Source: Rhodospirillales bacterium
Lineage (GTDB): Bacteria; Pseudomonadota; Alphaproteobacteria; Rhodospirillales; SHVU01
Direction: 5' to 3'
Length of the DNA stretch: 64,000 nucleotides
Assembly: GCA_009691105.1 (NCBI GenBank)
Contig: SHVU01000010.1
Span: forward strand, 1-64,000
The notes beneath the pieces were generated by a model. It was not told where the DNA came from. It ran no database searches and was given only the letters and a program-made list of their open reading frames with translations. Positions 24,234 to 31,486 of this stretch are shown here, in pieces. A program made the translations under genes and the position numbers. The first letter of the stretch is position 1. Each line of letters begins with the position of its first letter.

Positions 24234-24384
24234 GGCCCGAGGGTTTACAAGATGCTCGGCCTTCGGGGAAGGCCCGCCCTCTTCACGGCTGGTTTCAGAT
24301 CGTTGCACCCGGACTCCGGCGATTCCTTGACAACCCCCGTGGGCCCCACCCTAAATGGCGCGCTTCGGCGGGTCGCCGGCACAT

Positions 24385-24459
24385 GGGCGCGTAGCTCAGC
24401 GGGAGAGCATTCGCCTCACACGCGAGAGGTCGCTGGTTCGATCCCAGCCGCGCCCACCA
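24385..24459 (+). tRNA. tRNA-Val (anticodon CAC)
   Basis: GGGCGCGTAGCTCAGCGGGAGAGCATTCGCCTCACACGCGAGAGGTCGCTGGTTCGATCCCAGCCGCGCCCACCA; complete cloverleaf, anticodon loop CTCACAC, encoded CCA. Confidence 0.95.
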
Positions 24460-24483
24460 GCCGCATCCCGCGAGAGTTGCCCC

Positions 24484-26334
24484 ATGGCGACGCGCAAGAC
24501 CCCTACCTGGACGTGTCGTTTCGAGAGGCCGGCCAGAAAAATCTGGCCCGTCCTTGCCGATACCGGCCGATTCAACGAAGCCGCCGGCCTCCCCAAGCAC
24601 GAGATCATCGAAATCCCCCAGGACGACGGGTCGATTCGATTAGTTGGCCGCCTCAAGAAGGGTCCCTTCACGATCGAATGGGACGACGGCCCGGCGAATT
24701 GGGTCAGCGAACAGTGGTTCCGCCACGACCGCCGCTTTCGCAACGGCCCCTTCAAATTTCTGGGCGCAACCCTGAAGTTCTTCCCCGAGGGCAACGGCTG
24801 TCGCGGCGAATATACCGTCGAGGTCGAAGCCGGGAACTGGCTTGGCAGCCTAGCTTTGGCGACGACGTTTTTTCCGAACACCGGACGGAAGTTCGCGAAG
24901 CTCGCCCGCAACGCCGACGAATTCGCCATGGGCCGGCGCGACACCGAATTCGACGCGCTCCCGCCTCAGCTTGCCGACGGCGCGACGGAACGTGCGGCGC
25001 GACTGGTTGCGGCAATCGACGCGACGCCGCACAACCACGGCCTCGCCCGCCGCCTCGCCGATTACGTCCTGACCCGCCAAGAAATCGAGATCGCATCGAT
25101 CCGACCGTTGAAACTTGCCCGGCTTTGGCGAGCCCCGGAGCGCGACGCCATCGAGGTTTGCCTGGAAGCCGCCAAACAAGGACTCCTCTCCATGCGCTGG
25201 GATTTGCTCTGCCCGCGCTGTCAGGTCGGCAAGGCGGCGACGCTCGCCATGGATGAATTGCCGACGGGCGCGCATTGCGGGTCCTGCAACATCGACTACG
25301 GCCGCGAATACGCGCGCAACATCGAGGTCGTGTTCTATCCGGCGCCGACGATCCGCACCGTTACCGGCGGCGACTATTGCCTGTTCGGGCCGATGAGCAC
25401 GCCGCACATCAAGATTCACGTGACGCTGGCGCCGGGCGAACGCCGCGAGGTCGAGATCGGACTCGAGCCCGGCAACTATCGTTTGCGCACCCTCGAGGCC
25501 GGCGACGAAGCCATCGTCGAGTGGGACGGCGGCTGGTTCCCCGAAGTGATCGTCGACGGTGCCACCTTCATCGCCGGACCGCCGACGGCGCCGGGCTGCG
25601 TCCGTCTGCACAACCGATCCGCCAAGCCGCGGACGTTGATCGTCGAGGAACGCATCTGGCGCCGCGACGCCCTGACCGGTGATCGGGCGATTGCGCTGCA
25701 GGCCTTCCGCGATCTCTTCGCGAGCGAGGCTCTGCGCCCCGGCGCCGACATCGCCATCGAGGCGGTGACGCTGATGTTCACCGACTTCAAAGGATCGACC
25801 GCGCTCTACAACCGGATTGGCGATCCGCAGGCCTATGCCTTGGTGCGCGAGCACTACGCGATCATCGGCCGGGCAGTGCGCGACAACAACGGCACCGTTG
25901 TGAAGACCATCGGCGACGCCGTCATGGGCGCCTTCACCGATCCGGTCGACGCGCTGAAAGCCGCGATCCGGATGCACGCCGATCTCGCCGCGTATAATCA
26001 GACGTCCGGCAAAGACCCGATCACCATCAAGCTCGGCCTGCATCTCGGCCGTTGCATCGCCGTCACCCTCAACGGCCGCCTCGATTACTACGGCGCGGCG
26101 GCGAACAAAGCGGCGCGCCTCGAAGGGCAATCACTCGGCGGCGACATCGTGTTGTCCGACGACTTCGTCAAAGACCCCGGCTTGAAAGAGATGCTCGCCG
26201 GGTTTTCGCCAATGGAAGGCCGCGCCCCTCTCAAGGGCTTCGACACTGACGCCGTCTTCTTCCGCCTCACCGCCAAAGAACTCGCGGCGAAGCGTCACGC
26301 GACCGCAATCCCGATACGCCCACCGAACGCGTGA
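24484..26334 (+). CDS. SRPBCC/DUF5939-like + class III adenylate/guanylate cyclase domain protein
   Basis: N-terminal MATRKTPTWTCRFERPARKIWPVLADTGRFNEAAGLP.. (SRPBCC-like), central CPRCQ..HCGSC zinc-ribbon-like segment, C-terminal VTLMFTDFKGSTALYNRIGD..GTVVKTIGDAVMGAFTD..NKAARLEGQS cyclase domain. Confidence 0.85.
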   Translation: MATRKTPTWTCRFERPARKIWPVLADTGRFNEAAGLPKHEIIEIPQDDGSIRLVGRLKKGPFTIEWDDGPANWVSEQWFRHDRRFRNGPFKFLGATLKFFPEGNGCRGEYTVEVEAGNWLGSLALATTFFPNTGRKFAKLARNADEFAMGRRDTEFDALPPQLADGATERAARLVAAIDATPHNHGLARRLADYVLTRQEIEIASIRPLKLARLWRAPERDAIEVCLEAAKQGLLSMRWDLLCPRCQVGKAATLAMDELPTGAHCGSCNIDYGREYARNIEVVFYPAPTIRTVTGGDYCLFGPMSTPHIKIHVTLAPGERREVEIGLEPGNYRLRTLEAGDEAIVEWDGGWFPEVIVDGATFIAGPPTAPGCVRLHNRSAKPRTLIVEERIWRRDALTGDRAIALQAFRDLFASEALRPGADIAIEAVTLMFTDFKGSTALYNRIGDPQAYALVREHYAIIGRAVRDNNGTVVKTIGDAVMGAFTDPVDALKAAIRMHADLAAYNQTSGKDPITIKLGLHLGRCIAVTLNGRLDYYGAAANKAARLEGQSLGGDIVLSDDFVKDPGLKEMLAGFSPMEGRAPLKGFDTDAVFFRLTAKELAAKRHATAIPIRPPNA

Positions 26335-27208: not shown

Positions 27209-29446
27209 CTAGGTCGCTTCGACGAAGCTCGTCATCACCTTCTTGGTGCCGGCTTTCTCGAAGGCGATCTCAAGCTTCGGACCGTCGATGGCGAGGATCC
27301 GCCCGTAGCCGAACTTCTGATGGAAAATCCGCTGGCCGGTCGCGAAGACGGAGCCGGAGTTGACCGGAGCAAAGCTTGGCGATTCCGGTCCGACCAGACG
27401 CAAAGCATGGCGCGGGCGCGGCGCGGCGAGAACCGGAGCGTCGTCGAAGCGTGACCGTCCTCCGGCCTCGGCCAAAAGTCCCGGCTCGACGAGAGCCTCG
27501 ACATTGGCGGCCGGAAGCTCGGCGATGAACCGGGACGGCAACGGATTCTGCCATTGGTTATAGACGCGACGGCTCCCCACAAAGCTGATGATGGCGCGGC
27601 GCTTGGCGCGGGTCAGGCCGACATAGGCGAGACGACGCTCTTCCTCGAGGCCCTTTGGCCCTTCTTCTTCCAAGGTGCGCTGGTTCGGGAACAGCCCCTC
27701 CTCCCAGCCGGGAAGAAACACGGTGTCGAACTCAAGGCCCTTGGCGCCGTGGAGGGTCATGAGACTCACTTTGTCCGTGCCGGCAGCTTCCTGGTTTTCC
27801 ATGACCAAGCTAACGTGCTCGAGAAATCCTTGCAGGTTCTCGAACTCGGCCAGCGCCGCGATCAGCTCCTTTAAGTTCTCGAGCCGGCCCGGAGCTTCGG
27901 GCGTCTTGGCCTGGCGCCACATCGCGGTGTAGCCGGATTCGTCCAAGACCTGCGCGGCAAGATCGGCATGCGCAATGGTCGCAAGCTGCGATCGCCACCG
28001 CGCCATATCGCCAAGCAGGCGAATGAACGTGGCGCGCGGCTGCGGCTTGAGTTCGTCGGTCTCGACCAGGCGCGCGACGGCCATGGTCAGAGGAATCTTT
28101 TCGGCGCGGGCGAACTCGTGGACCGTGCGAAAGGTCGTGTCGCCAAGACCGCGTTTCGGAACATTGGCGATCCGCTCGAACGCCAGATCGTCGGCGGGCT
28201 GCACGATAACGCGCAAATAGGCGACGGCGTCGCGGATTTCCTGGCGCTCGTAGAATCGCGGCCCGCCGACTACGCGGTACGGAACGCCCAGCGTGATCAA
28301 GCGCTCTTCGAATTCGCGGGTTTGGAAACCGGCGCGCACAAGAATGGCGATACCGCTCAACGGCTCACCCTTGGTTTGGCGCGATTCGATCTCATCACCG
28401 ATGAAACGGGCTTCGTCCTCGCCGTCCCAGAGCCCAACGACCCGCACCGGCTCGCCTTCGGCGGACTCGGTCCACAGCGTCTTACCGAGACGGCCTTGGT
28501 TATGCGCGATCAGCTCCGATGCGGCAGCGAGGATATGCGGCGTCGAGCGATAGTTGCGCTCCAACCGAATAACTGTGGCGCCCAGAAAATCGGCCTCGAA
28601 GCGCAGGATGTTGCCGATCTCGGCGCCGCGCCAGGAATAGATCGACTGATCGTCGTCACCGACGCAGCAGAGATTGCGATGCGCCTGGGCGAGAAGACGT
28701 AGCCACAGGTATTGCGAGACGTTGGTGTCCTGATACTCGTCGACCAGGATGTAGCGAAACTGCTGCTGATAGCGCGCCAAGACGTCTGGCTGCTTCTGAA
28801 AGAGCGTGATGACGTGAAGCAGCAGATCGCCAAAGTCGCAGGCGTTCAGGGTCGCAAGACGCTCCTGATAGTCCGTGTAAAGACGGAGCGCCTGACCATC
28901 GGCGATCTTAGCCCCTTCAACGGCGGAGACCTTGTCCGGGGTCAGGCCGCGATCCTTCCAGCGCGAGATGGCGGCCTGAAGGGCCCGAGGCGGCCAGCGT
29001 TTCTCATCGATCTCGTGGGATTCGAGGAGCTGCTTGAGGAGACGCAGCTGGTCATCCTGATCGAGAATCGAGAAGTTCGGCTTCAAGCCGATCGCCTCGG
29101 CATGAGCCCGCAGGATCCGAGCACTCAAGGCGTGGAACGTACCGATCCACCACCCTTCGACCGCCCGGCCAAAGAGGCGCGCGGCGCGCTCCCGCATTTC
29201 GGCGGCGGCTTTGTTGGTGAAAGTAACGGCCAAGACCTCCCAGGGTCGGGCCTTGCCTTCGAGCAGAAGATGGACGAAACGGGTCGTAAGGACGCGGGTC
29301 TTGCCCGTCCCGGCGCCGGCCAGCACCAGCACAGGCCCATCGGTCGCCAGCACAGCATCGCGCTGGCGATCGTTCAAGCCTTCTAGATAGCTGCGGTTTG
29401 GTTCCGTTGAGGCGGCCAAATGGTCCGCCTCATGCGACTCGATCAT
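27209..29446 (-). CDS. uvrD: UvrD/PcrA-type superfamily 1A DNA helicase
   Basis: YLEGLNDRQRDAVLATDGPVLVLAGAGTGKTRVLTTRF...VDEYQDTNVSQYLWLRLLA..CVGDDDQSIYSWRGAE..LMTLHGAKGLEFDTVFLPGWEEGLFP. Confidence 0.96.
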   Translation of the reverse strand: MIESHEADHLAASTEPNRSYLEGLNDRQRDAVLATDGPVLVLAGAGTGKTRVLTTRFVHLLLEGKARPWEVLAVTFTNKAAAEMRERAARLFGRAVEGWWIGTFHALSARILRAHAEAIGLKPNFSILDQDDQLRLLKQLLESHEIDEKRWPPRALQAAISRWKDRGLTPDKVSAVEGAKIADGQALRLYTDYQERLATLNACDFGDLLLHVITLFQKQPDVLARYQQQFRYILVDEYQDTNVSQYLWLRLLAQAHRNLCCVGDDDQSIYSWRGAEIGNILRFEADFLGATVIRLERNYRSTPHILAAASELIAHNQGRLGKTLWTESAEGEPVRVVGLWDGEDEARFIGDEIESRQTKGEPLSGIAILVRAGFQTREFEERLITLGVPYRVVGGPRFYERQEIRDAVAYLRVIVQPADDLAFERIANVPKRGLGDTTFRTVHEFARAEKIPLTMAVARLVETDELKPQPRATFIRLLGDMARWRSQLATIAHADLAAQVLDESGYTAMWRQAKTPEAPGRLENLKELIAALAEFENLQGFLEHVSLVMENQEAAGTDKVSLMTLHGAKGLEFDTVFLPGWEEGLFPNQRTLEEEGPKGLEEERRLAYVGLTRAKRRAIISFVGSRRVYNQWQNPLPSRFIAELPAANVEALVEPGLLAEAGGRSRFDDAPVLAAPRPRHALRLVGPESPSFAPVNSGSVFATGQRIFHQKFGYGRILAIDGPKLEIAFEKAGTKKVMTSFVEAT

Positions 29447-29524: not shown

Positions 29525-29899
29525 CTATTTCTTTTTCCGGGTCGTCGCGAGGAGTGCCAGAAAATCCTGACGCGCGTCTTCGGGCATCGCGTAACGCTGG
29601 AAAATTTGCTCGGCCTCGCGCTCCGCAGCCGAGGAACCTGCCGGCGTCGTTATCGCCGACGGCGACGGAGCAATACGAACGCCCACACCGTGTGGATCGG
29701 CGGTCACGACAACGCCGGCCGCGCCGAGCGCGTTTTGGATCGCCGTCAAATTGTTGGGAAAGGGCGTGCGCGCGCCGCGTTCGAAATCCGCGACGGTTTG
29801 CTTGGCGACGTTGGCGTGCTTGGCAAGTTCAGCTTGATTCCAGCCGGCCAACGCCCGCGCCGCCTTGCACAGCTTGCCCGTAAATCGCGCGTCATCCAT
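29525..29899 (-). CDS. XRE/HTH-family transcriptional regulator
   Basis: MDDARFTGKLCKAARALAGWNQAELAKHANVAKQTVADFERGARTPFPNNLTAIQNALGAAGV.. Confidence 0.88.
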   Translation of the reverse strand: MDDARFTGKLCKAARALAGWNQAELAKHANVAKQTVADFERGARTPFPNNLTAIQNALGAAGVVVTADPHGVGVRIAPSPSAITTPAGSSAAEREAEQIFQRYAMPEDARQDFLALLATTRKKK

Positions 29900-29906
29900 T
29901 CCGACC

Positions 29907-29929
29907 TCAATATTAAATATTGACAATAT
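29907..29929. promoter_or_regulatory. Overlapping palindromes, putative autoregulatory operator of the HTH gene
   Basis: TCAATATTAAATATTGA (29907-29923, perfect) overlapping ATATTGACAATAT (perfect about one centre base), 7 bp upstream of the HTH start codon. Confidence 0.6.
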
Positions 29930-30022
29930 CACACTACCTAAATATAAATACACGACCTCAGGCTGGTCGTTCAAGCACCGTTTTCTGTCATGTCACCGCT
30001 CATCACACACGGAACGCAGGCC

Positions 30023-30343
30023 ATGACCCGGCTGACGCGGATCCTGATCGCCCTCGCCGCTGGCGCCGCCGCGCTGACGTTGAGCGTCTCCGTCAACGCC
30101 GCCGATGCCGCCCCATCCTGTGCCCGACGTCCGGCGGTCGTCGACGGGCTAAAGCGGAATTTCGCCGAAGTCCCGGTCGCAGTCGGCTTGCAGGCCGACG
30201 GCTCGATGATGGAAGTCTTTGCGTCGCCAAAGACGGGAAGCTGGACCATCGTCGTCACGCGTCCCAACGGCACAAGCTGCGCGGTCGCCGACGGCGAAAA
30301 CATCGAAGTACGGCCGGTGTCCGCCCTCGAATCTGGTAGCTAA
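30023..30343 (+). CDS. Small secreted hypothetical protein with signal peptide
   Basis: MTRLTRILIALAAGAAALTLSVSVNAADA...; mature part ~80 aa. Confidence 0.6.
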   Translation: MTRLTRILIALAAGAAALTLSVSVNAADAAPSCARRPAVVDGLKRNFAEVPVAVGLQADGSMMEVFASPKTGSWTIVVTRPNGTSCAVADGENIEVRPVSALESGS

Positions 30344-30460: not shown

Positions 30461-31486
30461 ATGTTCGCCCGATTGTCCGTCCTCCGCCTTCTCATCCTCG
30501 CCGGACTGGTCGCCGTTGGCGTCAGCCTCGCGAACGATCGCGTCTTTGCCGCGACGCCGTCCGAAGAACCCGCCGCCCATGTTCTGGGCGCGATGGTCGG
30601 GCTACGCATCAGCGTGCCGCCCGACGCGCGTAGCGCTCAGACGCTGGGCGCCGAGCGCGCCGGCGGCGGCGTCGTGATCGATGAGAATGGATTAGTGGTG
30701 ACGATCGGCTATTTGATCTTGGAAGCCGGCCGCATCGACATCATCAAAGCCGATGGCGAAGCCGTTCCGGCCCACGTCGTCGGCTACGATCATGAATCCG
30801 GCTTCGGCCTGGTGCGCGCCGAATCCGCGCTCGGCATTAAACCGATCCGACTAGGTCAATCCTCGGCGCTGGCCGAGGGCGACCGCGTGCTCGCCGTCAG
30901 CGTCGGGCCGCGCCCGGTCACTCCCGGCTACGTCGTGTCGCGCAAGCCGTTTGCCGGCGGGTGGGAATACCTGGTCGAGAACGCGATCTACACGTCGCCG
31001 CCGCATCAGAATTTCGGCGGTGCCGCCTTGATCAACGAGGAAGGACGGCTGGTCGGCATCGGCTCGCTCTATATCAACGTTGCGCTTCCCGGAGCGCAGC
31101 CATTGCCCGGCAATATGTTCGTCCCGATCGACGATCTGAAACTGATCTTCACCGACATGATCGAGCACGGCCGGCGCGCCAAAGGGCAAAAGCCGTGGCT
31201 CGGCGTCAACACCGAGGAAGCGTTCGGCCGCGTCTTCGTGTCGCGCGTCACGCCGGGCAGCCCGGCCGAGAAAGCCGGCATCAAAGCGGGCGACATCATC
31301 ATGGGCGTCGGCGGCCGCCGCGTCGAAAGCATGATCGACTTTTATCGAAAGATTTGGACGCTGGGCGAACCTGGCATCGCCGTGCCGCTCGACGTGCTGC
31401 AGCAGTCGAGCGATCTCACGATCCGCAAAGTCGACGTGCCGTCGGTCAGCCGTTACGACTGGCTGAACATCAAGCGCGGGTACTGA
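30461..31486 (+). CDS. HtrA/DegP-like (S1C) protein with PDZ domain, predicted proteolytically inactive
   Basis: Signal peptide; GGGVVIDENGLVVTIGYLI; NFGGAALINEEGRLVGIGSL; PDZ PWLGVNTEE..GSPAEKAGIKAGDIIMGVGGRRV. His, Asp and Ser catalytic positions appear substituted. Confidence 0.82.
   Translation: MFARLSVLRLLILAGLVAVGVSLANDRVFAATPSEEPAAHVLGAMVGLRISVPPDARSAQTLGAERAGGGVVIDENGLVVTIGYLILEAGRIDIIKADGEAVPAHVVGYDHESGFGLVRAESALGIKPIRLGQSSALAEGDRVLAVSVGPRPVTPGYVVSRKPFAGGWEYLVENAIYTSPPHQNFGGAALINEEGRLVGIGSLYINVALPGAQPLPGNMFVPIDDLKLIFTDMIEHGRRAKGQKPWLGVNTEEAFGRVFVSRVTPGSPAEKAGIKAGDIIMGVGGRRVESMIDFYRKIWTLGEPGIAVPLDVLQQSSDLTIRKVDVPSVSRYDWLNIKRGY

Follow-up and report, generated by a model that had tools for sequence, protein, structure and literature searches.

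Is the protein encoded at positions 30461 to 31486 still a protease, and if not, what might an HtrA-like protein with a rebuilt active site do in the cell? The window, i.e., the whole stretch of 64,000 nucleotides analysed here from a contig of a Rhodospirillales bacterium, carries this gene as a solitary unit, and a preliminary description had read its product as an HtrA/DegP-like pseudoprotease. The parts of the gene are as follows.

30461..31486, plus strand: coding sequence of the HtrA-like pseudoprotease, 341 residues, stop included in the interval; ATG at 30461 with GGAG upstream, stop at 31486; Pfam Trypsin_2 and PDZ
30461..30550, plus strand: signal peptide, about residues 1-30 (MFARLSVLR-LLILAGLVAVGVSLA-NDRVFA), a hydrophobic segment with the cleavage site placed by eye
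30701..30727, plus strand: pseudo-His motif TIGYLILEA, residues 81-89, Tyr84 in the His position (columns compared with DegP)
30785..30811, plus strand: pseudo-Asp motif YDHESGFGL, residues 109-117, Gly114 in the Asp position (column compared with DegP)
30998..31030, plus strand: pseudo-Ser loop PPHQNFGGAAL, residues 180-190, Gly186 in the Ser position
31109..31132, plus strand: GNMFVPID, residues 217-224, the most conserved eight residues of the family
31193..31423, plus strand: PDZ domain, about residues 245-321, with the PWLG loop at 245-248 and Pfam matches PDZ_2 (246-321) and PDZ_6 (259-297)
31442..31465, plus strand: C-terminal motif SxDRxDWL, residues 328-335, family-specific, here reading SVSRYDWL

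By descent the protein belongs to the HtrA superfamily, with a trypsin-like domain followed by a PDZ domain and an HtrA fold. Trypsin_2 matches residues 68-200 with 61.9 bits (Pfam cut-off 27.6), and the PDZ domain said to remain is indeed there, its families scoring 41-45 bits against curated Pfam cut-offs of 23-27. The closest solved relatives in a phmmer search are DegP (6.5e-24) and DegQ (5e-23) of E. coli. Among the NCBIfam profiles no HtrA equivalog cut-off is reached: the best match, the Do/DegP family TIGR02037, scores 102.6 bits (cut-off 416.2) and the DegS equivalog 67 bits (cut-off 422.95). An AlphaFold2 model computed on a 64-sequence alignment (A1) has a mean pLDDT of 93.2 and a pTM of 0.86, and its top 50 Foldseek matches in the PDB are all of the HtrA family (e.g., DegQ 4ynn, E=4.5e-23; DegQ 3stj; HtrA1 5zvj; DegP 3otp), so that the structural comparison sides with the DegP likeness first read from the motifs. 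Superposed over the whole chain, the model reaches a modest TM-score of about 0.5 with HtrA structures, and rmsd is large, which suggests that its two domains differ in arrangement from theirs or that their placement is uncertain. The N-terminal hydrophobic segment (Kyte-Doolittle mean 2.68; a helix at residues 3-27 in the model) agrees with the signal peptide proposed earlier. A family-specific tail, SxDRxDWLK, follows the PDZ domain at 31442-31483 (+).

The catalytic positions were compared with 26 references: DegP, DegQ and DegS of E. coli, and 23 HtrAs from Alphaproteobacteria. Both DegPs encoded in the genome under study are included. All 26 possess the full His-Asp-Ser triad. In this alignment Y84 falls in the His column (VVTIGYLI for VVTNNHVV), G114 in the Asp column (ESGFGLV for RSDIALI) and G186 in the Ser column (QNFGGAAL for GNSGGAL), in agreement with the manual alignment to DegP. 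The GNSGG oxyanion loop is replaced by NFGGA, Asn184 and Phe185 standing where GNSGG has Gly-Asn, and GNMFVPID occupies the place of the DegP stretch GIGFAIP.

The same substitutions run through a large family. A scan of genome contigs yielded 450 confirmed relatives. The best 80 of them, 45-63% identical, were kept; together with loci from a further genome search they make up the 118 members compared here. His and Asp are missing in 118 of 118: the His column holds Tyr in 116 and Cys in two members, the Asp column Gly throughout. The Ser column is less uniform (Gly 74, Ser 33, Ala 8, and Q, V and N once each). The claim that all three catalytic positions are replaced accordingly stands for this protein, and for the family it stands for His and Asp only, since the Ser column is not fixed. 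Residue 186 switches between Gly, Ser and Ala within the family, and 33 of the 118 members keep Ser alongside the replaced His and Asp. Chance or sequencing error as the source of the substitutions is ruled out by the 80 independently sequenced members and by the 118/118 pattern.

The Ser retained by some members raises the question of whether a different, weaker catalysis could persist. We regard this as very improbable. None of the 33 Ser-keeping members has the oxyanion-hole Gly, and all of them lack His, Asp and with them the general base; this protein itself has Gly in the Ser position. The oxyanion-hole residue, the Gly of GNSGG, is kept by all 26 active references but by only 13/118 family members, and the Asn of GNSGG has given way to Phe (49), Trp (41), Tyr (18) or His (10). 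Ordinary serine-protease chemistry is very unlikely in the family because the Ser-keeping members have neither a general base nor the oxyanion Gly and because the Asn of GNSGG is always an aromatic residue or His. An intact triad at other positions was likewise looked for in the conserved columns of the 118 members and was not found: no His is conserved family-wide and no Lys fits, the best Lys columns (K227, 74%; K297, 63%) and the His columns (below 70%) not being family-wide, and no general base is evident.

The loss of all three catalytic residues could also be the mark of a decaying gene, a pseudogene in progress. The conservation data of the family refute this reading, to which we give hardly any credence. 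Reading frames are open in nearly all members, with one stop among the matches listed, and dN/dS is 0.06-0.38 in 26 close pairs, while the replacement motifs are invariant across a wide proteobacterial range. In the core family alignment (n=81) the pseudo-His motif TIGYLxxEA has T81, I82, G83 and E88 in 81/81 and Y84 in 80/81 sequences, and G114 is invariant (81/81). WEY (168-170) and GNMFVPI (217-223) are nearly invariant, P245, W246 and G248 of the PDZ loop are invariant, and S328 (98%) and R331 (100%) mark the C-terminal motif, a motif that the HtrA references do not have. Within the family, entropy is lowest in the windows GNMFVPID (0.22 bits, where the mean is 1.62), GLVVTIGY and FAGGWEYL; replacement motifs of the former active site are thus among them. 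The residues are kept while their codons vary, Tyr84 being encoded by TAT in 49 and TAC in 31 cases and Gly114 by all four Gly codons. The altered active site is under purifying selection, and the expectation, raised with the first reading, that orthologues share the substitutions under such selection is borne out by the family-wide absence of His and Asp together with the dN/dS values.

A tree built without the active-site motif columns separates all pseudoproteases from the other sequences by a branch whose SH-aLRT support is 100%, and one state change is enough to explain their distribution. Long branches of 1.29 and 1.25 changes per site set the pseudoprotease and active clades apart. We interpret this as a single loss of the triad, which is the simplest reading of a quick tree with SH-aLRT values only and a root whose position is not fixed.

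Compared with DegP, DegQ and DegS (HtrA, MEROPS S1C), the protein shares the chymotrypsin-like domain followed by PDZ, the export and the best sequence and fold matches, but it is without His, Asp and Ser, its oxyanion loop is rebuilt, it has a single shortened PDZ domain and it falls into a separate clade. A close precedent is MamO of Magnetospirillum, likewise an exported HtrA-derived domain that has lost catalysis (PMC4794232). Of the triad, MamO retains the His (H116) and the Asp (D149) but has T225 in place of Ser; it binds metal at a surface di-His site (H148/H263) and carries a TauE transporter domain at its C-terminus (PMC4794232). In MamO the oxyanion-hole residue (chymotrypsin 193) causes a steric block, and the present family resembles it there in that 105/118 members have a residue other than Gly; the family differs from it in having lost the His and Asp that MamO keeps, in lacking conserved metal ligands and in being general, whereas MamO is specific to magnetotactic bacteria.

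That MamO is an experimentally shown HtrA-family pseudoprotease binding transition metals (PMC4794232) makes a similar metal-binding role worth weighing, the more so as His111 (64%) and His182 (69%) are frequent in the family. We nevertheless consider it improbable, and the metal-site hypothesis was rejected on the conserved His and Cys columns: among the 118 members every His column stays below 70% and every Cys column below 60%, Thr or Ser stands in 118/118 where the MamO ligand H148 directly precedes D149, and no His is conserved in the helix closing the protease domain. Pfam detects no TauE domain in this protein, which ends after PDZ. It is neither an active HtrA/DegP nor MamO and belongs to an unnamed clade of HtrA pseudoproteases. 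Pseudo-orthocaspases (PMC6426788) are another bacterial pseudoprotease family in which the catalytic His became Tyr; they are caspase-like, hence unrelated proteases, and the likeness is one of analogy only.

The clade comprises two versions, which we label A (the subfamily of this protein) and B; these are working groups, and two B-labelled members fell among A in the tree. A signal-peptide-like hydrophobic segment (threshold 1.9 Kyte-Doolittle) is found in 93 of 99 A members, in line with the export proposed for this protein. Subfamily B is about 41-46% identical to it and mostly lacks a signal peptide. Only one of the 19 distinct B-labelled sequences passes the threshold (L161, which looks like a mislabelled A member) and one is borderline (L164); in several B members the stop-to-stop frame is too short for any signal peptide. 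Judged by these features, subfamily B is probably cytosolic. A short QPxPEDVSFDLDxAL-like motif lies ahead of the protease domain in several B members.

Both versions occur in the genome under study. The second is found on another contig (C50, L089:4872-5867, minus strand) and has Trypsin_2 and PDZ, the conserved QPxPEDVSFDLDxAL-like motif and no signal peptide; it is likely a cytosolic HtrA-fold protein. It lies directly downstream of a DUF1501/DUF1800 pair (L089:5903-8574, minus strand), a link not conserved in 14 other loci. No tandem or fused copies turned up: L026 and L076 have long ORFs, but these are only extended stop-to-stop frames. The genome also encodes two intact DegPs (L003 and L004).

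DegP combines protease and chaperone roles, and keeping the binding while dropping the cutting would therefore be the simplest route to a protein of this kind. With moderate confidence we favour an exported, catalytically dead HtrA paralogue that binds rather than cuts and serves as a peptide-binding scaffold or chaperone. It would be exported to the periplasm by the Sec pathway, probably assemble into an HtrA-type trimer, and hold peptides or unfolded envelope proteins with the PDZ loop and the rebuilt, conserved former active-site cleft, thereby acting as a chaperone or scaffold. The two intact DegPs would do the cutting and leave the pseudoprotease copy free to specialise, and the paralogue without a signal peptide would have a comparable job inside the cell. 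The PDZ domain has the PWLG loop of other HtrAs, and its peptide binding may be altered or lost because about 12 residues that follow the loop in DegP and other active HtrAs are missing. More tentatively, and with less confidence than in the binding role itself, the old cleft may have become a dedicated ligand or client site, the ancient two-branched clade forming a non-proteolytic arm of quality control.

The main rival is a protein that regulates active DegP, or acts as its decoy, through mixed oligomers or substrate competition and so tunes its activity. Such a role would fit the two active DegPs encoded alongside it, the presence of DegP homologues in every one of 26 genomes searched, and an HtrA fold kept with high model confidence. 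We still hold it to be unlikely: the long branches between the clades (1.29 and 1.25 changes per site) lower the likelihood that the two have a trimer interface in common, the gene was not seen linked to degP, many related genomes with DegP carry no family member, and the non-exported paralogues could not meet a periplasmic DegP.

Counting the genome under study, 22 of 40 relatives carry a family member. Among 387 genomes drawn evenly from the class the number is 105, i.e., about a quarter of those sampled, and among 398 drawn from the phylum it is 42, all but two of them within the same class. The family also occurs in metagenome-assembled genomes that are labelled as Beta-, Gamma- and Deltaproteobacteria or Binatota; binning errors may lie behind some of these copies, but a betaproteobacterial group forms its own supported branch in the tree. 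B-type copies are located on large replicons of Azospirillum, Rhizobium, Neorhizobium and Phyllobacterium and, where annotated, are called 'S1C family serine protease' or 'signal protein PDZ'; the annotated plasmid copies bear no informative names.

Searches of Pfam and NCBIfam turned up no curated model for the clade, and it is not described in the open-access literature covered by a limited search, most subscription journals lying outside. A clade with exported and non-exported branches thus appears to be undescribed, while HtrA pseudoproteases as such are already known. These have so far been isolated cases such as MamO; here a whole clade is concerned, which many free-living Alphaproteobacteria carry and which root-nodule bacteria have too. 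Because it is automatically labelled 'S1C family serine protease', counts of DegP-like proteases in such bacteria go wrong with current annotation. A dead active site strictly kept over large evolutionary distance offers a testable case of a protease turned binding protein, and the non-exported branch would mean that an HtrA fold is at work in the cytosol.

The genomic context names no function, because only uvrD and a CLC channel gene recur and subfamily B has no partner. The gene is preceded by a small frame (29990-30343, +) and, further upstream, by a gene for a helix-turn-helix protein (29525-29974, -) and by uvrD (27209-29446, -); downstream and convergent are genes for a PhoB-type regulator, PhoU and the Pst transporter, pstA and pstC being assigned by position and by reading their sequence. 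When the neighbours of 84 loci were clustered, no conserved operon partner emerged: uvrD is divergent upstream in 32 of them, including this window, and the CLC channel is near the gene in 21. As functional partners both were rejected, as they look like inherited gene order, and many other apparently conserved clusters are spurious ORFs antisense to uvrD, to the CLC channel genes or to the pseudoprotease itself. The 15 subfamily B loci likewise show no conserved neighbour. The small frame at 29990-30343 (+) appears to encode a signal peptide and matches no Pfam family. Further upstream, a cyclase ORF (24355-26334, +; DUF5939 and a guanylate cyclase domain), as mechanically called, overruns a tRNA-Val gene at 24385-24459, and its true start must therefore lie further downstream.
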